Source: an uncultured Amylibacter sp. | GTDB lineage: Bacteria > Pseudomonadota > Alphaproteobacteria > Rhodobacterales > Rhodobacteraceae | Direction: 5' to 3' | Assembly: GCA_947497475.1 (NCBI GenBank) | Contig: CANMGS010000001.1 | Coordinates: 1,054,001-1,118,000, forward strand | DNA: 64,000 bases | Shown: piece after piece, positions 7,373 to 63,688 of the stretch | Position numbering within the stretch: position 1 is the stretch's first letter | Layout of the letters: the number at the start of each line of letters is the position of its first letter | The notes under the pieces: model-generated | Database searches by the model: none | What the model was told of the DNA's origin: nothing | What the model saw: only the letters and a program-made list of their open reading frames with translations | Position numbers and translations under genes: made by a program

Positions 7373-7960
7373 TTAACGGAAAATTAACAGCGCGGAAAGG
7401 GCAAGAAACACTGCCATCGTTCGACGAAAGATCAGCCATGCACGTTCTGTTTTTAAAAATCGAGAAATACCTTCGCCAAAGTAAGTCCAGAATGTACATA
7501 CGAAAAAGTTAATGCCCGTAAAACCCATAGCCAAACGCAAAGCTTCACTTTCAGGAGGTAAGCCCAGCGGATACCCTGCAGAAGCAGCCACTGCGACAGC
7601 CCAAATTTTCGGATTTACCCATTGGAATAATACCGCTTCGATGAAAGTAAATGGTTTATCTGCTGATCCCTTTTTCAAGCCACCGCTGGCAGAAAACAAA
7701 CTCCACGCCATCCAAAGTATCCAGGCAGCTGCAATGCATTTTAAGACAAAAGCAAGTTTAGGTTGCGCAATCAATAATGCACCAACCCCAAATCCAACAC
7801 ATGCACCGATAATACCAACACCAGCAGCGACACCAAGGATATGGGGCCATGTTGCACGCGCACCAAAGCGTGCGCCTGATGCGAGAAGCAGAATGACATT
7901 AGGGCCAGGGGAAAAGAGACCTGCAAAGATAAAGGCATAAACGGGATCAAATAGGCTCAT
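7373..7960 (-). CDS. LysE/RhtB-family translocator
   Basis: A membrane exporter of about 195 residues with six predicted transmembrane segments. The family signature is present as SPGPNVILLLASGARFG near residue 15 and FQWVNPKIW in the middle. LysE/RhtB proteins export amino acids or related small metabolites; the substrate is not assigned. The start at 7960 is chosen because its ATG overlaps the stop of the preceding LysE-like gene (ATGA); the open frame continues upstream but lacks family similarity. It is the second of two adjacent paralogues. Confidence 0.85.
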   Translation of the reverse strand: MSLFDPVYAFIFAGLFSPGPNVILLLASGARFGARATWPHILGVAAGVGIIGACVGFGVGALLIAQPKLAFVLKCIAAAWILWMAWSLFSASGGLKKGSADKPFTFIEAVLFQWVNPKIWAVAVAASAGYPLGLPPESEALRLAMGFTGINFFVCTFWTYFGEGISRFLKTERAWLIFRRTMAVFLALSALLIFR

Positions 7961-8562
7961 ACTAGATTTCCAAATGCAATTGCGATGACTGACAAAGCCA
8001 TTAGGCTGGCCATTGTTATATTGAACAACCGCAAACGGCCAGGTGATGTTAACCAACGGCTTGCGAATTTACCTAACAAAGCCCATCCCATTGGTGACGT
8101 AAAACCAACAAATATAAAAACGGCTCCTATAATCGAAATACTGGTTAATTGATTGCTTGGATCAACGAATTGGGCATTTATGCTAATGCAGTTCACCCAT
8201 GCTTTTGGATTAATCCATTGAAAGCCTACGGTTTGCCAGAATGTGAAAGGTTTGCCCTTTTTTGTTTCTGTTGCGTTTGTCGGCGCTGTCGCGATTTTAT
8301 AGGACAAGATTAGTAAAACAATTACTCCACCCCAACGAAGTGCTTCTCGCATAAAGGGGCTTTGCTCAAATATTGCGCCCAAACCAAGGGCGATCATTAC
8401 AGCCATAAAAGGAAAGCCAATACCAATACCTGCAATATGTGGTAGAGTTGCACGGATGCCGTAGCGTGCACCCGAGTTTGCTGCGATGGTATTGTTTGGG
8501 CCGGGTGTCCATGCGGCGGCATGTGCGATCCCTAACAAACTCAGGAAAACTTCAAATGTCAT
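7957..8562 (-). CDS. LysE/RhtB-family translocator
   Basis: A 201-residue multi-pass membrane protein with the LysE signature TPGPNNTIAANSGARYG near residue 20 and a central FQWINPKAWVN. It is a diverged paralogue of the next gene and is coupled to both neighbours by 4-bp ATGA overlaps (cca upstream, second LysE downstream). The tandem may indicate different substrates or a heteromeric exporter; the sequence does not decide. Confidence 0.85.
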   Translation of the reverse strand: MTFEVFLSLLGIAHAAAWTPGPNNTIAANSGARYGIRATLPHIAGIGIGFPFMAVMIALGLGAIFEQSPFMREALRWGGVIVLLILSYKIATAPTNATETKKGKPFTFWQTVGFQWINPKAWVNCISINAQFVDPSNQLTSISIIGAVFIFVGFTSPMGWALLGKFASRWLTSPGRLRLFNITMASLMALSVIAIAFGNLV

Positions 8563-9731
8563 TCACTTACCTCATCTGGCAAGGCAAGTAACTCTGCTTG
8601 TGTCATGCAAAGATTGGAGTTAATCCACGCGGCGTTTAATTGTTTTAAACGTTTACCCAAATGTGGCCCTTTATAGCTGTCTGGTATGTCTGCGGATGTA
8701 ATTGGGAAAACTGCATCGACTCCTGTTTGCAGCTCTTGGTCTAAGGTTTCTGAAACGGGTGTTGCCATATGTGCTGCAAGCACCAACATGGCATCGCGCC
8801 CGGCCTCTAAGCCTAATAAATGACCAGCAACTTTTGGGGACATAGCCTCTGTAACAACGTTTTTCATCTGTGCTAAAAGATGTGCTTCTTTCTTACTAAG
8901 ACGCAAAGCATCTTTCACATCTTCCCCACCTAAAGCCAGCAGGCGGCGCATCCAATTTGGGTTAATGCCTGTTGTGCTTTCTAAATGTACAAGTGGAGCG
9001 ATAGAGGCGGTATTTGCACCAGCGATAACATGCATCAAGACCCCTGATTGAGACATGGATGCAAGGCTTGGCGCAGGATCATCTGCAGCCAAAAGTTTGC
9101 GCATTTCATGCCCTATCCGTTCTTTAGAAAGACTTTCGATCCCGTCCAGATTGCTGGCACAAGCATCCAAGGCATCGGCATCAATACCGCCAGCTGGGTC
9201 GCCATAGATCGCATGAAACCGAAAGAACCGAAGAATACGCAGATAATCCTCTTTGATACGTTGATGTGCATCTTGTATGAAACGTACATGGCGGTTTTTT
9301 AGATCATTCAAACCACCCAATGGATCATAAACGGTTCCATAAATATCAGCATACAGCGCGTTCATTGTGAAATCGCGACGCAATGCATCCTCTTTAATGT
9401 CTTTGGAAAATGCCACTACGGCACGACGTCCATCTGTCTCAACGTCCTTGCGAAACGTAGTGATTTCAAAAGGCTCGTTGTTCACTATGATAGTGACTGT
9501 ACCGTGCTCAATACCCGTTGGAATAGCACGCAACTGGGCATCTTTCGCGACCTTTAAAACTTTCTCGGGCAACGCATCTGTTGCAATATCTATATCGCTG
9601 GCAGGAGCACCTAGCAAAGCATTGCGCACACAACCGCCGACGAAATAAACTTTATAGCCAGCATCACCAAGGGCAGCGCAAATGGCTTTTGCTCCATTAT
9701 TTTGCAGCCAATCCGCTTTAACCTGCATCAT
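8559..9731 (-). CDS. cca: CCA tRNA nucleotidyltransferase
   Basis: A 390-residue class II nucleotidyltransferase that adds or repairs the 3' CCA of tRNAs. The N-terminus has VYFVGGCVRNALLGAPASDID, the Pol-beta palm with the DID metal site, then RDFTMNAL and LRILRFFRFHA, typical of the bacterial/eukaryotic CCA family. The C-terminal part is helical with no HD phosphohydrolase motif seen. The start lies inside the end of the Nudix gene (14-bp overlap), and the 3' end overlaps the LysE gene, so cca sits mid-operon. Confidence 0.92.
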   Translation of the reverse strand: MMQVKADWLQNNGAKAICAALGDAGYKVYFVGGCVRNALLGAPASDIDIATDALPEKVLKVAKDAQLRAIPTGIEHGTVTIIVNNEPFEITTFRKDVETDGRRAVVAFSKDIKEDALRRDFTMNALYADIYGTVYDPLGGLNDLKNRHVRFIQDAHQRIKEDYLRILRFFRFHAIYGDPAGGIDADALDACASNLDGIESLSKERIGHEMRKLLAADDPAPSLASMSQSGVLMHVIAGANTASIAPLVHLESTTGINPNWMRRLLALGGEDVKDALRLSKKEAHLLAQMKNVVTEAMSPKVAGHLLGLEAGRDAMLVLAAHMATPVSETLDQELQTGVDAVFPITSADIPDSYKGPHLGKRLKQLNAAWINSNLCMTQAELLALPDEVSE

Positions 9732-10341
9732 GTTGCTCCATGATTTCGGTAAACATGCGCATCATGCGTGCTGTGGCACCCCAAATGTAATAGGGGCCAT
9801 AAGGTACTGAAAAATAACGACGCGCTTGGCCTTGCCATATGCGCCCCTCTATTTGGTAGTTTTTCGGATTAAGCAAATGATCTAATGGTGCAGAAAACAC
9901 TTCGGCAACTTCACCCGTCAACGCCGTTGGTCTTGCATCTTCTGGAACTAGGCCAACATAGGGGTGCACCAAAAATGATGTAACTGTTTCATGTTTGGGT
10001 AGCGCGCCGATAATTTCTATACAGTCAGGCTCTAACCCGATTTCTTCATGTGTTTCACGCAAGGCAGTGAATTTTGTGGATGTATCGCTGACATCTGCCT
10101 TACCGCCTGGAAATGAAATTTGCCCAGGATGGTGGCGCATCTTTTGTGATCGTTTTGTAAAGATCACTTCAAGCCCAAGTGGGCCTTTGGTGATCGGGAT
10201 CAACACAGCCGCATTTGTTAGATTGTGTGAACTGACTTTCCCATAATCATGGTTCAGATCAAAATCTGATGATGGTGCGATATGATCTACCGCTGACAAT
10301 GCGGCTTCGATACGATTTAACTGCGGGCGAAAATTTTCCAT
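9718..10341 (-). CDS. CoA-pyrophosphatase-type Nudix hydrolase
   Basis: About 207 residues, resembling the NudL/YeaB group that hydrolyses CoA and its derivatives. The Nudix box runs from FPGGKADVSD through LRETHEEIGL near residue 80, and a TKRSQKMRHHPGQISFPGG segment precedes it, as in the CoA-specific group. The open frame begins with a TTG six codons earlier; the ATG at 10341 is preferred, although neither start has a strong ribosome binding site. It probably shares a transcript with cca. Confidence 0.8.
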   Translation of the reverse strand: MENFRPQLNRIEAALSAVDHIAPSSDFDLNHDYGKVSSHNLTNAAVLIPITKGPLGLEVIFTKRSQKMRHHPGQISFPGGKADVSDTSTKFTALRETHEEIGLEPDCIEIIGALPKHETVTSFLVHPYVGLVPEDARPTALTGEVAEVFSAPLDHLLNPKNYQIEGRIWQGQARRYFSVPYGPYYIWGATARMMRMFTEIMEQHDAG

Positions 10342-32142: not shown

Positions 32143-33305
32143 TGAAAACCTGTGATGTTCTGATTGTTGGGGGCGGGCCTGCGGGGTTATCTGTGGCCTC
32201 ATCCTTGGGCAACAACATCAGTTCTATAGTCGTACATCAGGATATGGAAATCGGCAAACCTGTGCGCACCAGCGGTGGCAGCTTTTTAAAGGATATAGAA
32301 CGACTGTGTCCCAATCAGGACATTTATCAAGTAATTGATAAGTTAGACTATTTTTCAGACAATGCTGAGGCACGGTTTGACATTGAGACCGATAAAATGG
32401 TCATTTTAGATGTCACGAAACTCTACAAACATCTGGCCTCTTTATCGGATGATAAACCGCGTGAACTGCTGCTGGGAACAAAGTACATTAGCACGGTTAA
32501 AGAGGATGGTTTTTACACCTCAACGCTGCGTTTGCGCGATGGTGAAAAACAGCAAGTGAAATCCAAATATATCATCGATGCATCAGGCTGGCATTGTGCG
32601 GTCACAGCTCCGCTTGGTTTGGTGGAAAAACCTGAACGTTTGGGCATTGGTACAGAATATGAGTTCGTCCAAAAAGATTACCCAATGAACCGCGCGATCC
32701 TGTTTGTTGGATCGCATGTTTTGTCAGGATATGGTTGGGTTTTCCCCACCAATTACGGCACCGTGCGTTTGGGCGTGGGTGTGATTAAGCCCGACACAGA
32801 CGACAGCCCGCGCGATGTGATGCAATCACTTTTGGACAGTGGTTTTTTGGATAAGCTGGGTGTGAAAGTGCCAGAGGATTATGAGGTAAATTCGGGCATT
32901 TTACCGTCTGAACCGTTCGACCAAAACGTGGTGTTTGGCAATATTATCCGCGTAGGAGATTCCGCTAATTGTGCAACCCCTGTTGCTGGCGAGGGTATTC
33001 GCATTGCGATTGAACAAGGGCGTTCATTGGGTGCGTTATTATCCAAAGCGATTGAGATAAACAGCGATCGTCCACTGGATTATTATGAAAAAGCCTATGC
33101 TGCAAAATATGCTCGTGATTACCGTATCGGGTTTTGGGCGAACCAGCGCATTGCACGTTATACCCCTGCGGATTGGGACAAATCGGTGAAACGTTTGGCC
33201 AAGATGGATGAGGTGCAAATGACTGAACTCTTACGCAGCAGGTTCAGTTTGAAATCCATTTTACGCACTGTGATTTTACACCTGAAGCGTAAGCTATTCG
33301 GATAG
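32142..33305 (+). CDS. FAD-dependent oxidoreductase, geranylgeranyl-reductase-like
   Basis: A 387-residue flavoprotein. The N-terminal FAD motif is VLIVGGGPAGLSVASSLG and the second is GDSANCATPVAGEGIRIAIEQG near residue 275. The pattern fits the geranylgeranyl reductase / digeranylgeranylglycerophospholipid reductase group, whose members saturate isoprenoid chains; other flavin monooxygenases share it. The substrate is not assigned. It is the last gene before a bidirectional terminator. Confidence 0.75.
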   Translation: MKTCDVLIVGGGPAGLSVASSLGNNISSIVVHQDMEIGKPVRTSGGSFLKDIERLCPNQDIYQVIDKLDYFSDNAEARFDIETDKMVILDVTKLYKHLASLSDDKPRELLLGTKYISTVKEDGFYTSTLRLRDGEKQQVKSKYIIDASGWHCAVTAPLGLVEKPERLGIGTEYEFVQKDYPMNRAILFVGSHVLSGYGWVFPTNYGTVRLGVGVIKPDTDDSPRDVMQSLLDSGFLDKLGVKVPEDYEVNSGILPSEPFDQNVVFGNIIRVGDSANCATPVAGEGIRIAIEQGRSLGALLSKAIEINSDRPLDYYEKAYAAKYARDYRIGFWANQRIARYTPADWDKSVKRLAKMDEVQMTELLRSRFSLKSILRTVILHLKRKLFG

Positions 33306-41115: not shown

Positions 41116-41144
41116 TTGTTTTTCCTAAGGCTAATCCATAAACA
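41116..41144 (+). promoter_or_regulatory. Promoter of the truncated tRNA-Ser copy
   Basis: TTGTTT at 41116-41121 and TAAACA at 41139-41144 are 17 bp apart and positioned to start transcription just before the tRNA 5' end. The same spacing and hexamers (TTGTTT / TAAATA) precede the intact tRNA at 43314, so the promoter is preserved although the flanking bases have diverged. Confidence 0.55.
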
Positions 41145-41147
41145 CGT

Positions 41148-41192
41148 CCGTGGAGACGTGGCCGAGTGGTCGAAGGCGCTCCCCTGCTAAGG
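41148..41192 (+). repeat. 45-bp direct repeat, left copy (tRNA-Ser 5' half)
   Basis: Identical to 43310-43354. The identity begins 4 bp before the tRNA and ends just inside the 3' strand of the anticodon stem; upstream promoter sequence is similar but not identical. Such repeats mark tyrosine-recombinase attachment sites in anticodon stem-loops. The two copies bound 2,162 bp (41193-43354). Confidence 0.8.
41152..41192 (+). pseudogene. Truncated tRNA-Ser(GCT), 5' half only
   Basis: Sequence equals the acceptor 5' strand, D arm and anticodon loop of the intact tRNA-Ser(GCT) at 43314, then diverges after GCTAAGG. The variable arm, T arm and 3' acceptor strand are missing. The promoter is kept, so a truncated transcript could be made. 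Confidence 0.85.
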
Positions 41193-43309: not shown

Positions 43310-43354
43310 CCGTGGAGACGTGGCCGAGTGGTCGAAGGCGCTCCCCTGCTAAGG
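43310..43354 (+). repeat. 45-bp direct repeat, right copy
   Basis: Partner of 41148-41192, here continuing into a complete tRNA gene. Confidence 0.8.
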
Positions 43355-43406
43355 GAGTAGGCGGTTTGTAGCTGTCTCGAGGGTTCGAATCCCTTCGTCT
43401 CCGCCA
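43314..43406 (+). tRNA. tRNA-Ser(GCT)
   Basis: Acceptor stem GGAGACG pairs with CGTCTCC (43396-43402), discriminator G at 43403 and an encoded CCA at 43404-43406. The anticodon stem-loop CTCCC-CTGCTAA-GGGAG gives anticodon GCT, reading AGC/AGT serine codons. A long variable arm and the T arm GAGGG-TTCGAAT-CCCTT confirm a class II serine tRNA. Its 5' half is duplicated at 41152, and an integrase gene starts 166 bp downstream. Confidence 0.97.
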
Positions 43407-43529
43407 CTATACCATTTTACTAGATATTTATGAATTGCTTTGAGTGGCGATTTAGCCTTATTTATATGGCTATAGTACGGTTTTAGTATTTCACTGGATT
43501 TCTTTCGATTACGCCTGTATATTTTCACT

Positions 43530-43550
43530 GTGTGGTATGAAGTGTGGTAT
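43530..43550 (+). repeat. Two GTGTGGTAT repeats 12 bp apart before the integrase
   Basis: GTGTGGTAT occurs at 43530-43538 and 43542-43550, 22 bp ahead of the integrase start, in the attachment-side leader. Likely arm-type integrase sites or an operator for the integrase promoter. Confidence 0.45.
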
Positions 43551-43571
43551 AAATAAGCAGGAAATCGAACT

Positions 43572-44768: not shown

Positions 44769-44980
44769 AAAACTCCCACTTGTTATGTAGACAGATATGG
44801 TTTCCAATTGGTGCCAATTCAAACAAATCCCATTTGATTCTTTGGGATGAAACTGAACTAAACCCAATCCATTTTTCTAAGATCAATCGCACGATTTATG
44901 CAGGTTTAGGCCTCTTAAGCCAGTGCCGAGTACTATGGAGTGTTGGGGGTAATTAATACAAAAGTAGGGAGGATAGTGTC

Positions 44981-45796
44981 ATGCCAGATATAAAGTTAGA
45001 GATAAAATCAATACACCAGCTAGGTTTGTCCCAGCAACAAAAGCCTTTATGCCATGTATGGTATAAGGTTGGAATGACTGAAGACTTAGTAATTGTAGAA
45101 GGTATAAAGTCTGAATTAGAGGTAAATAATGGCTTAGGTGATATATTATTAAACCTAAAACTCGATATTACTGCGGCCGCAGATTATTATTTTCAACGCG
45201 GAAACGATAGTAATGCTTATGCACATTTTAAATCAATTCTTGTCCTCGAAGGTCTATGGGAAAAACTATATGATCCGCTAAGTGAAGAGCAAGAAATGTA
45301 TGCTAAGAGAGCTAAAAAAATAACAGCGAGAACAGTAAATATAGGAGAAAACATTAACCTGTTGTGGGAGTATATTAATAAAAACTATCCTCTATATTCA
45401 GAACCTTTCTACGCAACATTATTCATGTACCATTTTTATGTCACCAAAGATGAGTTCAAGCTTGGGCATTTGTTTGCTGACTGGTGGGCAAAATATTATG
45501 TAGGTGATGTATATGGAAATTATAATCGTAAGGAAGCAGCCATTGCTGGATCTAGGAAAGCTATTTCCTCAAGGCAAAAGGAACGGCTTGATAGCTTTAT
45601 GACTGAGATCGAAAAAATATATTATGCAAGCCCAGAGTTCCAAAACAACAAGAAAATAATCTTACAAACAGCATTTGAAAAGACCTTTCCTAAAGGCACG
45701 TATGCTTCTGGACGATTCGATGAATACAGGAAAAAGATATCCCGCGATGAGCCATATTTGTCACGGATGAAACTGTTGTTTGGTGAAGTTACTTAA
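44981..45796 (+). CDS. Unknown element-borne protein
   Basis: A 271-residue, mostly helical protein, rich in Lys, Tyr and Asn, with no recognised domain. Aromatic-rich stretches LWEYINKNYPLYSEPFYATL and HLFADWWAKYYVGDVYGN stand out. GGGAGG precedes the ATG. Its stop codon lies within the first of three palindromes that continue upstream of the AlpA-like gene. The AT-rich codon use suggests transfer. Cargo or element regulation are both possible. Confidence 0.65.
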   Translation: MPDIKLEIKSIHQLGLSQQQKPLCHVWYKVGMTEDLVIVEGIKSELEVNNGLGDILLNLKLDITAAADYYFQRGNDSNAYAHFKSILVLEGLWEKLYDPLSEEQEMYAKRAKKITARTVNIGENINLLWEYINKNYPLYSEPFYATLFMYHFYVTKDEFKLGHLFADWWAKYYVGDVYGNYNRKEAAIAGSRKAISSRQKERLDSFMTEIEKIYYASPEFQNNKKIILQTAFEKTFPKGTYASGRFDEYRKKISRDEPYLSRMKLLFGEVT

Positions 45797-45843
45797 GTAA
45801 CTCCTGAAATATACCCAAGTTACTTAAGTAATATAACTTAAGT
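45787..45843. promoter_or_regulatory. Three ACTTAAGT-centred palindromes upstream of the AlpA-like gene
   Basis: AGTTACTTAAGTAACT (45787-45802) is a perfect 16-bp palindrome; AGTTACTTAAGTAAT (45818-45832) and TAACTTAAGTGA (around 45834-45845) are related copies. Centres are 31 and 14 bp apart. Clustered symmetric sites ahead of a regulator gene look like operators for a dimeric DNA-binding protein encoded by the element. Confidence 0.6.
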
Positions 45844-45904
45844 GATACAAAATCAAAAATATCAATTGTATTTGAAACTGAAGTTAAACAAACGGAGGTA
45901 AACC

Positions 45905-46126
45905 ATGACACAATTATTCGATGATGACCGTCACTATCAAACTACTGACCCAGAGATAATTGCCCTCTTGGGCAGTAAAGATAAGCAAGCTCAAATGCGC
46001 CATTATAAGCGTTCGCCAGCTTACTTTCGTCTGGGACGGAAGATTATTTATCACGGTGCAGATCTTAACTCTTGGGCTGATGCCCAGCGCGTTGATACCT
46101 GCGTAAATGATATCAATAATATTTAA
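45905..46126 (+). CDS. AlpA/excisionase-like DNA-binding protein
   Basis: A 73-residue protein. The segment RSPAYFRLGRKIIYHGADLNSW matches the end of the MerR-like HTH_17/AlpA fold in which a helix-turn-helix is followed by a wing with YxxxDLxxW. Such proteins act as excisionases or control integrase expression. GGAGG lies 4 nt before the ATG. It sits next to the triple palindrome and before the HUH gene. Confidence 0.75.
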   Translation: MTQLFDDDRHYQTTDPEIIALLGSKDKQAQMRHYKRSPAYFRLGRKIIYHGADLNSWADAQRVDTCVNDINNI

Positions 46127-46280
46127 GCGTTTCGTACTGTCGCTGAGCATGGTGCTTTTTTGAATATAAACAGACCATCATAAAATCTGACTAAGTCAGA
46201 CACTCTCATAATTTTAAATCAAACGATCCCTCAATCCTAAAAGGCATTGAGTGGAATGGTGTAACTATGGAGAATTGAAT

Positions 46281-47060
46281 ATGAAGACCACTGATATTCC
46301 TGAAACGGGTGATTTACGACCGCAGCTCGCGCACGCGGTTTATAACTCTCGCGGAGTCCTTAGCAAGTATGCGCCGCCTACAAGAGCTGCTAAGCCCGTC
46401 AAAAAGAAGAGCTCTGATGATTTGCCAATTGGCACTCAACAACTCTTCATTGATACAATAGCATACACGTATTCGCTTGGAGCTGGGATTAACACATTGC
46501 TAACAGTGGATTGGGACCGCTTGTTTAGTGATAATGCTCCCCACAAATTACGTACTATCAAATATGAGAACCGCATTCCTTATGTCGTCGAATGTATTCG
46601 CAAATGGGTTAAGCGCCGTATTGATGTGTTCTATTATATTTGGGTGCGTGAAGTTGCATCAGATGTTGGAGAGCACTGGCATTTAGTCATGTATCTTCCA
46701 GCGCGGTATCATGCGGAGTTTGCCGTTTATTGTGAAAAGCTCTTTGAGGAAGTGCAGGGCTCCAAAACACGCCCTCTATATTCTAAGCAATCACTGGGTG
46801 AAACAGCAGTGTCTGAATACGGCAGCTGGCAACTGGCGCAAGATATCAATCCTGATTGTCGAGGTTATTACCTTGGGGCCTACCTTGGTAAAGGAGAGCT
46901 ATCTGAGCGAGTGTTTCGAGGTAAGCTTATTCCGAATGATAGAAAGCCAGTAAAGCACGTTGAGGGTAGGGCCGATTATGATGCCTCACAAGGTCATATT
47001 CTGGGCTCAGAACACCGTATACAGCGGTTTGATATGTCTCGCGAGTTGAAGAGAGTGTGA
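46281..47060 (+). CDS. HUH-type replication initiator-like protein
   Basis: About 259 residues. The three HUH Rep motifs can be seen in order: a strand NTLLTVDW near 71-78 (motif I), HWH at 132-134 in EHWHLVMYLP (motif II), and GYYLGAYLGKG with Y197/Y201 and K204 (motif III, Y-x-x-K). This resembles inovirus gp2-like and rolling-circle initiators. The ATG at 46281 has GGAGA upstream; the frame extends 10 codons further. It implies a replicative or mobilisable phase of the element. The catalytic assignment is inferred from motif order. Confidence 0.6.
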   Translation: MKTTDIPETGDLRPQLAHAVYNSRGVLSKYAPPTRAAKPVKKKSSDDLPIGTQQLFIDTIAYTYSLGAGINTLLTVDWDRLFSDNAPHKLRTIKYENRIPYVVECIRKWVKRRIDVFYYIWVREVASDVGEHWHLVMYLPARYHAEFAVYCEKLFEEVQGSKTRPLYSKQSLGETAVSEYGSWQLAQDINPDCRGYYLGAYLGKGELSERVFRGKLIPNDRKPVKHVEGRADYDASQGHILGSEHRIQRFDMSRELKRV

Positions 47061-47187
47061 TGCTTTATTTATAACTAGTGCATGCTATGGCTTTACTTGG
47101 CACCAGTCGGATAGATTTGACTTCTTGATGGTAATTAAGCTTTGCCAAAATGCTTGACTGTAACAGTTTTTAGGAAAACTCAATCTT

Positions 47188-47269
47188 TGCACGAGGAAGT
47201 TAGATCAGCTTTTTTAGGCTGGAGTAAATCGGGATTAGGCCGCACTACGTTCGCACTGCCTCTCGCGTA
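47188..47269 (+). ncRNA. Structured 82-nt repeat, copy 1
   Basis: Predicted fold: outer stem TGCACGAG with CTCGCGTA (one mismatch, one G-U), hairpin CAGC/GCTG, and hairpin CGG-GATTAGG-CCG. Conserved unpaired parts shared with copy 2 are GTTAG, ATTAG and the 3' stretch CGTTCGCACTGCC. TTGACT lies about 30 nt upstream as a possible -35. It could act as RNA or as a folded single-strand DNA site for the HUH protein. Strand is assigned tentatively from the upstream promoter-like boxes. Confidence 0.5.
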
Positions 47270-47567
47270 AGTTCTTCACTAATAATAGTTTGTTCTATTT
47301 TTATATAATATCGTTGTGTATTCTGGTTGCATAACGCTTTGATAGGTCGTGCGGAAACAGATGAGCTTATGTCATTTTATGCACTTAGGAGACTCATGTA
47401 TAACTAAGGCTTGTTCTGAGATTGTACTTCTTATTAATATCACATATTATATTCATTGGTTGAGCTAATTGAAGGCAGGTAAGCTGAATTATTCGGTTCC
47501 TGAGTTAACCTTTTAGCTCAATCAGCTTTTGCTGAATAATGTTAGATTTGATAACTAAGAGTGCTTT

Positions 47568-47649
47568 TGCGCGGGAAAGTTAGGTCAGCCCTTTGTGGTT
47601 GGAGAAAGCCAGTATTAGACTGGTAGTCGTTCGCACTGCCCCTCGCGCA
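47568..47649 (+). ncRNA. Structured 82-nt repeat, copy 2
   Basis: Aligns to copy 1 without gaps (59 of 82 identical), offset 380 bp. Outer stem TGCGCG/CGCGCA, hairpin CAGCC/GGTTG and hairpin CCAG-TATTAGA-CTGG. The third hairpin has a true compensatory change relative to copy 1 (G-C to A-T), and the second has G-C to G-T and T-G to C-G changes that keep pairing. A TTGCTG/GATAAC promoter-like pair lies just upstream. Confidence 0.5.
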
Positions 47650-47750
47650 TTTCTTATACCCCGTATCAGCTTTAAGTTTCCACAAGGCCTAATCTTTGTT
47701 GGAAAAGCGGACATTCTGAAAACATAGTCAATGCCTAGAAGGGCTCATAA

Positions 47751-47777
47751 CAGACATTGGCGCTATCGGCCCAAAGC
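47751..47777 (+). repeat. 27-bp dispersed repeat, copy 1
   Basis: Identical to 53196-53222, and preceded in both places by GGGCTC-like sequence. It lies among units of the type CGGACATTC. Such sequence looks like a genome-wide intergenic repeat of this lineage rather than a pair of attachment sites; that reading is inference. Confidence 0.6.
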
Positions 47778-47913
47778 GGGCATTGGAAGGGTGCAATGGG
47801 CTACAGATATCTTAATGTCAGCAATGGGGGACATATCGGACATTCAGTGGCGTCATAAAATTGCTTAACTTTAAATAAATTAAATGGTGATATTTATACC
47901 TAAAGGTTTTTTT

Positions 47914-48030
47914 ATGTCAGAGATTAAAAGGATACTTTCCAGTAAGAAAAAAAATGGAATCTCAAGTATATTGATTGTCGCTACCGTTTATATACAATTT
48001 ACTGTCTGGGCCTCGATGACATCAAGGTAA
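47914..48030 (+). CDS. Possible 38-residue membrane peptide
   Basis: An ATG with AAAGG 7 nt upstream opens a frame of 38 codons: a basic N-terminus (MSEIKRILSSKKKN) and a hydrophobic stretch ISSILIVATVYIQFTVWA. The 3' third crosses into the GC-richer segment, so the frame may be a chance fusion at the element boundary. Confidence 0.25.
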   Translation: MSEIKRILSSKKKNGISSILIVATVYIQFTVWASMTSR

Positions 48031-48149
48031 TACTTCGCGATGTCGAAAATCTCAACAAGACCGTCGCGCGCGCCGATCACGCGGGAATAACGATCACGAA
48101 ACACACAGGTGGCACGACCCTGCATGATCCTTGGGGCACGGCCATCACA
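47988..48149 (-). pseudogene. Fragment of an unrecognised gene at the element boundary
   Basis: On the minus strand 48149-48001 reads as protein-like sequence including CVFRDRYSRVIGARDG and LVEIFDIAKYYLDVIEAQ, with GC-richer codons than the surroundings, then runs into AT-rich sequence and a stop at 47988-47990. There is no plausible start upstream because the GST gene begins there. It looks like a remnant cut on one side; the parent family is not recognised. Confidence 0.45.
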
Positions 48150-48171
48150 CTTAGCACTTAAGGAGACAGCA

Positions 48172-49128
48172 ATGCTTGTAAATGGAAAATGGACGACTGA
48201 CTGGCAACCAGTTCAGGCCAAGGATGAAAAAGGTGGTTTTGTGCGTCAAACATCGAGCTTTCGAAATTGGGTTACCCCTGATGGCAGCGCAGGCCCGACA
48301 GGTGAAAGCGACTTTAAAGCAGAAGCAGATCGCTATCACCTATACGTCGCACTAATTTGCCCTTGGGCATCGCGCACATTGATGGGGCGTAAGTTCAAAA
48401 ATCTTGAAGACGTGATATCAATTTCTGTGGTCGAGCCCATGCTAACGGATCAGGGTTGGCGCTTTGGTGACTACCCAGGCGCTAACCATGACACTCTGAA
48501 CGGTGCTACATACATGCATGAACTTTATACCAACGCTGACCCTGTATTCAGCGGTCGCGCGACTGTACCAGTGCTATGGGACAAACAACGAAACACAATC
48601 GTCAGCAACGAATCCGCTGACATTCTGCGGATGATGAACACAGGTTTCGGAGACCTCGCAGATACAGGCATTGACTTATACCCCAGCGAGCACAGAGATA
48701 AAATTGACGCTCTGAACGCTCGTATCTATTCCGAGCTGAACAACGGGGTTTATCGTGCAGGATTTGCAACAACTCAAGTGGCTTATGAAGAAGCGTTCGC
48801 GGAGATCTTCGCTATGTTGGACGAATTGGAAGCGCGGTTAGGTGACGGACGCAGCTATCTCCTAGGCGATAGCTTTACCGAGGCGGATATCCGCCTTTTC
48901 GTAACGTTAATTCGCTTTGATTTAGCCTATCATGGCCTATTCAAGACCAATCTACGCCGCATTGCAGACTATCCTAGCCTAAGTACTTATCAAGCGCGCA
49001 TTCTGGCGCTCCCAGGAGTTCAAGAAACAGTTAGTATAGACCACATCAAGCAAGGTTACTACTCGGTCAAGGCGTTGAATCCGACTGGCATCGTGCCGGT
49101 AGGGCCCGAACTCCAAATAGATCGTTAA
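48172..49128 (+). CDS. Glutathionyl-hydroquinone reductase-like glutathione S-transferase
   Basis: A 318-residue xi-class GST. The active-site motif is LICPWASRTLMGRK near residue 64, and WRFGDYPGANHDTLNGATYMHELY matches the family insert that follows. The C-terminal helical domain has SYLLGDSFTEADIRLFVTLIRFD. These enzymes reduce glutathionyl-hydroquinones. AAGGAGA precedes the ATG at 48172, which is preferred over the longer frame beginning in the gene fragment. It stands alone. Confidence 0.9.
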   Translation: MLVNGKWTTDWQPVQAKDEKGGFVRQTSSFRNWVTPDGSAGPTGESDFKAEADRYHLYVALICPWASRTLMGRKFKNLEDVISISVVEPMLTDQGWRFGDYPGANHDTLNGATYMHELYTNADPVFSGRATVPVLWDKQRNTIVSNESADILRMMNTGFGDLADTGIDLYPSEHRDKIDALNARIYSELNNGVYRAGFATTQVAYEEAFAEIFAMLDELEARLGDGRSYLLGDSFTEADIRLFVTLIRFDLAYHGLFKTNLRRIADYPSLSTYQARILALPGVQETVSIDHIKQGYYSVKALNPTGIVPVGPELQIDR

Positions 49129-61979: not shown

Positions 61980-63688
61980 TGCCTACGAAAATTTCCCGCG
62001 CCGCCTATGCCGATATGTATGGACCTACAACGGGTGATAAAATCCGTCTTGCCGATACCGATCTGATTATCGAGGTTGAGCACGACCTGACCACATATGG
62101 TGAAGAGGTCAAATTTGGTGGCGGCAAAGTCATCCGCGATGGCATGGGCCAATCCCAAGTCACCCGCGCAGGTGGTGCCGCGGATACGGTCATCACCAAT
62201 GCACTGATTGTGGACACCACAGGGATTTACAAAGCGGATGTTGGTCTGCGCGATGGGCAAATCCTGAAAACCGGCAAAGCGGGCAATCCAGATACACAAC
62301 CCAATGTTGATATCATCATCGGCCCAAGCACAGAAATCATTGCGGGTGAAGGTAAAATCCTAACAGCGGGTGGGTTTGACAGCCACATCCACTTTATCTG
62401 TCCCCAACAAATGGAAGATGCGCTGCATTCAGGCATGACAACCATGTTGGGCGGCGGCACAGGGCCCGCACACGGCACTTTGGCCACCACCTGCACACCT
62501 GGCCCTTGGCACATTGGACGCATGTTGCAATCCATGGATGACGTTCCCATGAACATTGGCCTGTCGGGCAAAGGCAACGCCAGCAAACCCGCCGCCATTG
62601 AAGAAATGGTCAAAGCAGGCGCATGTGCGCTGAAATTGCATGAAGATTGGGGCACAACACCCGCTGCCATCGATTGCTGCCTGTCCGTTGCAGATGACAT
62701 GGATGTCCAGGTGATGATCCACACCGATACATTGAACGAAAGCGGCTTTGTTGAAAACACAGTCGCGGCTATGAAAGGCCGCACAATCCATGCCTTCCAC
62801 ACCGAAGGCGCAGGGGGTGGTCACGCACCAGACATCATCAAAGTCTGCGGCGAAGATTTTGTGATCCCAAGTTCCACAAATCCAACACGGCCCTATACGG
62901 TGAACACGTTAGAAGAGCATTTGGATATGCTTATGGTGTGTCACCATCTTGATAAATCCATCCCTGAAGATGTGGCCTTTGCTGAAAGCCGCATTCGCAA
63001 AGAAACCATAGCCGCAGAGGATATCCTGCACGATATGGGTGCCTTCAGCATCATCGCATCCGACAGCCAAGCCATGGGGCGTGTCGGTGAAGTTGCCATC
63101 CGAACATGGCAAACCGCACATAAGATGAAAGTTCAACGCGGACGTCTACCTGAGGAAACAGGCGACAATGATAATGTCCGTGTAAAACGTTACATCGCAA
63201 AATATACGATCAACCCTGCGATTGCCCACGGCATCAGCCAACATATCGGCAGCGTAACCGAAGGCAAACGCGCCGACCTTGTTCTATGGTCGCCAGCCTT
63301 CTTTGGCGTGAAGCCTGAAATGGTTCTGTTGGGCGGTTCAATCGTTGTGGCGCAAATGGGTGACCCAAACGCATCAATTCCAACACCACAACCAGTTTAC
63401 ACGCGCCCTATGTTTGGCGCGATGGGGCGCGCTGTTCAGGCCTCTTCTGTATGCTTTGTGTCTCAAGCAGCCCATGCGGATAACATCGCAGGGCAACTCG
63501 GATTGGCGAAATCCACGCTGCCTGTGAAAAACACCCGCAACATTGGCAAAGATGACATGGTGATGAACAGCGCAAAGCCTGAAATCGAAGTGCACCCCGA
63601 AACCTACGAAGTGCGCGCAAACGGAGAGCTTCTCACCTGTGAACCCGCAACCGAGCTGCCCATGACGCAGCGCTACTTTATGTTCTGA
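61979..63688 (+). CDS. ureC: Urease alpha subunit
   Basis: A 569-residue catalytic subunit hydrolysing urea to ammonia and carbamate. The nickel-binding HxH is in [14 protein letters not shown], the carbamylated lysine in [11 protein letters not shown], and the mobile-flap cysteine and histidine in [17 protein letters not shown]. All look intact and the length is normal, so the enzyme should be active once nickel is loaded. Confidence 0.97.

Follow-up and report, generated by a model that had tools for sequence, protein, structure and literature searches.

Two diverged 82-nt repeats beside an HUH initiator-like gene in a small integrative element of an uncultured Amylibacter sp.

The window (the whole stretch of 64,000 nucleotides analysed here, positions 1,054,001 to 1,118,000 of contig CANMGS010000001.1 from assembly GCA_947497475.1) carries a small integrative element of an uncultured Amylibacter sp. 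in which two diverged copies of an 82-nt repeat lie downstream of a gene for an HUH replication initiator-like protein. The similarity of the two copies is far above chance. Our tentative interpretation is that they are cis-acting DNA sites specific to this element, with HUH-driven replication as their most likely role; a single-strand DNA site, one of the readings offered by the first-pass annotation of this DNA, is sensible beside such a gene. According to this explanation, the right arm of the element, which is untranslated, would carry one cis-acting DNA site in two diverged copies. We infer excision, rolling-circle replication and any contact between the Rep and the repeats: a circular form of the element would be released by the integrase together with the helix-turn-helix (HTH) protein and copied by the HUH Rep in the rolling-circle mode, and the repeats would be used as single-stranded or extruded hairpins, serving as Rep binding/nicking sites or as second-strand start sites. 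Here we present the features of the element and of the repeat pair, together with the comparisons that bear on this and on other explanations.

The host element and the repeat pair

The element is arranged in the order tRNA-Ser, integrase, ORF271, HTH protein and HUH Rep-like protein, with the repeats 3' of the HUH gene (Table 1). Its description as a small integrase-bearing element is upheld by the tyrosine integrase, which matched Arm-DNA-bind_3, Phage_int_M and PF00589, all above the Pfam cut-off, as well as PHROG 1 (integrase; E 7e-45). ORF271 yielded matches in two of the 295 genomes of the family, its own included; in genome G019, the neighbourhood of which was read by eye, a relative of ORF271 lies between integrase-like and HTH-like genes. 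The match of the 73-aa protein to HTH_17 (E 0.042) is below the cut-off, and in the related locus L018 the gene in the same position matched Phage_AlpA above the cut-off. A related integrase occupies the same tRNA-Ser place in the same-genus genome G120, where a 287-aa ORF, genes for HTH-like proteins and another recombinase-like gene come after it, as judged by eye. This G120 element yielded neither an HUH match nor a match to the repeat model described below (best 9.6 bits), and this joint absence speaks for the explanation by HUH-driven replication.

Table 1. Features of the element and of the repeat pair (positions are those of the window)
Feature	Position	Strand	Basis
tRNA-Ser (GCT), presumed integration target	43314..43406	+	related integrase beside the same tRNA in G120
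Tyrosine integrase, 398 aa	43572..44768	+	Pfam and PHROG matches
ORF271	44981..45796	+	no family above cut-off
Helix-turn-helix-like protein, 73 aa, AlpA-like by position	45905..46126	+	weak HTH_17 match
HUH replication initiator-like protein, 259 aa	46281..47060	+	PF23343 match, motifs
Repeat copy 1	47188..47269	+	ungapped alignment with copy 2
Spacer between the repeat copies	47270..47567	.	no plausible gene
Repeat copy 2	47568..47649	+	ungapped alignment with copy 1

No exact 10-mer was common to positions 43314-43560 and 44771-48400, and in the absence of such a direct repeat of the tRNA region to the right (attR) the right end of the element is not fixed. An open frame without a 5' part at about 48018-48160, which by eye resembles the 3' end of a truncated gene, adjoins a possible right end. 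Positions 47741-47848 are a dispersed repeat with three partial copies in the genome (C1:250927, 1107186 and 1119743) and a shorter match in genome G599. Upstream of the element, a partial second copy of the 5' half of tRNA-Ser, with its upstream DNA, is found at 41138-41192 and ends just past the anticodon; between it and the intact tRNA-Ser are some 2.1 kb in which three longer ORFs run on the minus strand, an arrangement that suggests another insertion. Elsewhere in the window, positions 62131-62420 of the minus strand gave a strong Rfam match to 5_ureB_sRNA (112 bits, E 1.2e-28), a family known from Helicobacter; the match may simply reflect conservation of an underlying gene.

The two 82-nt copies were borne out at the coordinates first given for them, with a spacing of 380 nt and 59 of 82 positions identical without a gap. 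The best ungapped 82-nt self-match within positions 47061-48020 was 60, as compared with a maximum of 47 among 200 sequences generated by a first-order Markov model trained on the same region, and the similarity is therefore not regarded as a product of chance. It is limited to the 82 nt, the flanks being dissimilar. Copy 1 starts 127 nt after the stop codon of the HUH gene, in a 3' arm with a GC content of 39%. The longest ORF overlapping the repeats has at most 47 aa, and the ORFs of at least 35 aa in the spacer are one inside it (39 aa) and one overlapping its right end (47 aa, minus strand).

Fold, covariation and searches for homologues

The fold drawn for the repeats consists of an 8-pair outer stem, a 6-pair hairpin and a 5-pair hairpin. 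As the first-pass annotation had stated, it can be drawn for both copies (19 of 19 pairs in copy 2, 16 of 19 in copy 1), one pair shows a G-C to A-T exchange between the copies, and four pairs are kept with G-T in one copy. The accompanying claim, that the stems change and the loops stay constant, did not hold: the copies differ in 11 of 38 paired and in 12 of 44 unpaired columns of the 82 nt, and change is thus not concentrated in the stems. When the observed substitutions were placed randomly, compensatory change was at chance level (P 0.51 and 0.36 for the two directions), a double change arising in 36-51% of the trials as against one such pair observed. Regarding the retained pairs, at least 16 were kept in 16% of the random trials from copy 2 to copy 1 (P 0.16); from copy 1 to copy 2 the observed 19 were rare (P 5e-5), a direction that is biased because the structure is largely that of copy 2 itself. 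By a count of pairs on the two sequences, 225 of 500 shuffles were equally good, so that covariance was not better than for shuffled alignments. Pairing reached 92.1%, against at most 44.7% with slid partners, a difference that is to be expected since the structure was derived from these very sequences. The longest identical run between the copies is 13 nt (permutation P 0.21).

The folding energies of the repeats are ordinary. The z-scores of the two copies were +0.53 and -1.32 (RNA) and +0.95 and -1.06 (DNA) on the plus strand, and -1.40 and -0.91 (RNA) and +0.82 and -1.04 (DNA) on the minus strand. Covariation had been put forward as the mark of a selected structure; with one compensated pair, which is chance level, and shuffles that score as well, it cannot serve as proof. 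Two sequences can neither prove nor exclude a structure, and the case for a selected one, as it was made, fails; this also counts against the explanation by HUH-driven replication, as selection on structure is not demonstrated. The claim of a structured RNA should not be carried forward on the present evidence.

These results bear directly on the possibility that each repeat specifies a structured small RNA, or a regulatory leader, carried by the element. The three-stem fold common to both copies speaks for it, and a small RNA is reported to be needed for SGI1 mobilisation in the part of PMC9299015 considered here; nevertheless, we hold it to be quite improbable, because neither the fold energies nor covariation distinguish the repeats from shuffled sequences, promoter- and terminator-like sites are near background with none at the repeats, and Rfam yielded no match over the repeats at the gathering score or at E 10. 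The last result agrees with the initial impression that they belong to no known RNA family.

A covariance model (R1) built from both window copies was compared with the genomes of 33 members of the genus, 295 of the family, 390 of the order and 385 of the class (overlapping sets) at E limits of 1, 0.1, 0.1 and 0.01, respectively; the family, order and class searches used stricter filters, by which weak matches are lost. The two window copies were the only convincing matches in these sets. Matches of 23.6 and 23.3 bits in the order set and of 20.2 and 18.7 bits in the genus set were rejected, as they lie inside ORFs that look like normal genes on inspection by eye. The one nearest to a homologue was that of 18.7 bits (E 0.45) in the same-genus genome G590 (L071, 605-713), where the conserved block is matched in 12 of its 13 letters, as is a large part of the outer stem; it is taken as a chance match because of its E value and its position within a 131-aa frame, where it encodes DFRTAYRAM.

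Searches of other collections gave a similar picture. The best E values in blastn comparisons of the two copies with 72,556 plasmids were 0.7 and 8, which is unconvincing, and positions 47061-48020 had no match at E 1 among 50,697 phage records. Exact patterns yielded a single match in viral contigs, situated inside a gene, and none with a stricter pattern; one exact three-block pattern was not found in a genome collection of 84,980 species. Integron attC sites have the consensus RYYYAAC ... GTTRRRY. No such pair with a start-to-start distance of 36-149 nt was present on either strand of positions 47001-47760, and GTTRRRY alone occurs in both repeat copies; the repeats are therefore not taken for attC sites. 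The first-pass annotation had named a lack of homologues beyond the locus as a result that would refute its proposal, and each set searched gave this result, the larger genome searches having been run with the stricter filters.

That no relative in the sets searched has kept the repeats, and that paired positions have changed no less often than the rest, would also be consistent with a decayed tandem duplication without present function. To this explanation we assign a low probability; the similarity stops at 82 nt, as it would for a unit kept for use, which is a weak argument against it. The lack of homologues fits best with a site belonging to a rather isolated Rep.

The HUH protein family and the sequences beside it

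The presence of an HUH initiator-like gene just upstream of the repeats was confirmed by a match that is weak but family-wide. The protein matched PF23343 (REP_ORF2-G2P) with an E value of 1.2e-5 and 26.0 bits, the curated cut-off being 27.8, and 11 of 12 aligned members of its family matched PF23343 at E 0.05. It resembles the G2P/ORF2-type HUH initiators of PF23343 in two motifs, which we take to be the HWH motif and the tyrosine motif Y..Y..GK, and differs from those members of PF23343 that score above the curated cut-off in falling just below it. The structure model is poor (mean pLDDT 55.8), and a fold search with this low-confidence model gave no significant match; the match of the best probability was SIRV1 protein ORF119 (probability 0.77, E 0.13), presumably a Rep. 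No relative of solved structure was found by sequence.

The identity of the HUH protein to its nearest relatives does not exceed 45% over most of its length, apart from one 73-residue match at 47%. From a site specific for such a Rep one would expect the same uniqueness, and this is what the repeats show. Matches were found in five of the 295 family genomes (its own included), in six of 72,556 plasmid records and at 11 loci in genome contigs; there were none in phages, and in viral contigs none with the single protein and one with the alignment.

The relatives occur in two settings, integrative and plasmid. The integrative locus of Gemmobacter aquaticus (L018) combines an integrase-like ORF with a gene for a 264-aa protein, a match to AlpA and the HUH gene. 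In the locus of Rhodobacter aestuarii (L025), which also contains an integrase-like ORF, the HUH gene is directly followed by a terminase small subunit (7777-8514; PF03592, E 2.7e-31); it is probably a phage satellite, and the terminase suggests that part of the HUH family lives as phage satellites. Another possible role of the window repeats is that of pac/cos packaging sites which a phage satellite has taken over from its helper phage. This is distinctly unlikely: although the R. aestuarii locus speaks for it, as does the order of integrase, unknown gene, AlpA-like gene and replication gene, which is that of the minimalist satellites in the parts of PMC10803314 drawn on, the phage records gave no match, the only match in viral contigs lies inside a gene, and none of the four genes of the element is a recognised packaging gene.

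The plasmid setting comprises six Rhodobacterales plasmids of 5-48 kb. Within the stretches shown, a separate annotated replication initiator is present in four of the six (L008, L009, L011 and L013), an annotated HTH gene precedes the HUH gene in four (L008-L010 and L012), and the same 612-bp hypothetical gene follows it in four (L009-L012).

The HUH relatives yielded no R1-like site (best 14.8 bits, E 0.1), and no comparable repeat pair was found around the HUH genes of L018, L024-L027, L003, L004 and L008-L012; both results count against HUH-driven replication as the function of the repeats. Longer repeat families around the HUH genes of L024, L009 and L012 are unrelated arrays. That of L024, a Tabrizicola contig, consists of 13 copies of a 53-nt unit, 65-69 nt apart (9470-10323).

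A further point against the same explanation is a possible origin elsewhere. Of 15 relatives examined, 11 (L008-L010, L012, L017-L019, L021-L023 and L027) have the motif TATATA near the start of the HUH frame (5' end), always at one coding position, and in L009 and L023 it is part of a perfect palindrome of 22 nt; it is lacking at this position in L013, L024, L025 and L026, and the window has TTTATAA at 46341. The origin of the HUH family may lie at this motif. TATATA falls in the codons of a partly conserved I-Y pair, and a reason in the protein is thus possible as well. If the origin were truly within the 5' end of the HUH gene, this would speak against the repeats as the nick site.

Two other kinds of sequence, here called type A and type B, accompany the HUH module in a group of ten plasmid-like loci (L009-L012, L017 and L019-L023), type A being found downstream of the HUH gene in eight and type B in five of them. 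The loci without type A are L021, which ends soon after the module, and L011, which has only its beginning. One or more of these short sequences, which are homologous to DNA beside relaxase genes, are carried by L009, L010, L012, L017, L019, L020, L022 and L023, and the Leisingera plasmid L030 has such a sequence too. The gene neighbourhoods inspected were those of the four large plasmids L031, L032, L033 and L035 and of the relaxase locus L046. On the conjugative plasmids L032 and L033, type A is situated just before a small gene, which is followed by a gene for a VirD2-like MOBP relaxase; a stretch of 91 nt that includes it is shared by 159 plasmids, of which 150 are typed as conjugative and 9 as non-mobilizable. 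Type B is situated upstream of an HTH gene and of another MOBP relaxase gene on plasmids L031 and L035, and a stretch of 101 nt that includes it is shared by 43 plasmids (37 typed as mobilizable, 4 as non-mobilizable and 2 as conjugative); type B is also found in a relaxase locus of the same-genus genome G600 (L046). Both types contain TGGCAGGA, which is similar to T-DNA borders and to the nic region of RP4. As a covarying hairpin, type A (14 copies) was no better than shuffles, 328 of 500 being equally paired, so that its assignment as an oriT is based on homology and position. Types A and B are probably borrowed oriT sites of two MOBP systems, as judged from sequence. Outside the group of ten loci, a match with two mismatches on the minus strand of L024 and one with a single mismatch at position 32721 of the window are taken as chance.

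By their position, types A and B suggest that the repeats of the window could be transfer sites, i.e., oriT-like sites at which a helper relaxase would nick the excised element, so that the element, though lacking its own relaxase, would be mobilised by conjugation (iOriT). The frequency of these relaxase-adjacent sequences downstream of related HUH modules speaks in favour, and we consider this explanation, the main rival to HUH-driven replication, rather unlikely, since a cognate would be expected in plasmids or genomes and none was found: the plasmid comparison was unconvincing, the repeat model scored no higher than 12.4 bits when 14 relaxase loci of the genus were compared together with flanks of 1.5 kb, and outside the ten loci the type A and B patterns gave nothing but the two matches taken as chance. 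On the minus strand, the repeats read GGCAGTGCG and have no more than the five letters GGCAG in common with the two types. The genome that contains the window has genes for a MobC-like protein, a relaxase (PF03432) and a VirD4-like protein in a row (L045/L057, at about 358 kb of C2); no full transfer system was seen by eye among the ORFs of at least 150 aa in a 20-kb stretch, which ends about 5.6 kb past the relaxase.

Relation to known systems

Among known systems, the element may be compared with the PICMIs of Vibrionaceae, which, in the passages of PMC10803314 drawn on, excise, replicate (reportedly by rolling circle) and are packaged as concatemers; rolling-circle replication is reported there for PICMI115, a minimal int-alpA element. 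Both are very small integrative elements with large non-coding regions, and they resemble each other in gene order: an integrase, a gene of unknown function, AlpA (in the element, a gene that is AlpA-like by position and whose HTH_17 match is below the cut-off) and then a replication gene. The element differs from PICMIs in its HUH Rep-like protein, in place of a DUF3987/DUF5906 primase, to which none of its four proteins had a match, and in its place beside tRNA-Ser instead of fis; because primase and fis site are missing, it is not a PICMI by definition. Furthermore, its relatives are in Rhodobacterales, and no helper is known.

With oriT mimics (iOriT/pOriT), as characterised in the parts of PMC8136818 and PMC11389934 consulted, the element shares short repeated sites, a non-coding arm, the look of helper dependence, and HUH-module relatives that carry oriT-like sites; it differs from them in that no cognate conjugative system was found for its repeats, which showed no convincing homology to an oriT among the 72,556 plasmids and the 14 relaxase loci of the genus. 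The portion of PMC12324425 considered, on marine Charybdis elements, deals with unrelated elements, and the oriT passages of PMC3832669 (Paracoccus plasmids) contain none that matches the repeats. Among the top matches listed from open-access PMC, no description of such an element type was found.

The element appears minimal and presumably helper-dependent, with an HUH initiator-like gene. A broader reading, which we regard as unlikely, is that there is a family of very small alphaproteobacterial satellites that replicate with a G2P-like HUH initiator in place of a primase. The present member would have a doubled multi-hairpin site of single-stranded DNA, by means of which a single helper or the element's own Rep would both copy and move it, and other members would have exchanged this arm for sites or genes suited to different helpers, such as the relaxase sites on plasmids and the terminase subunit in R. 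aestuarii.

If the repeats are sites for the Rep or for a relaxase, they would explain the persistence and spread of an element with just four genes. The comparison of the family suggests that one HUH module has been joined to different transfer signals, relaxase-adjacent sequences in some loci and a terminase subunit in another, and helper switching is therefore directly testable.
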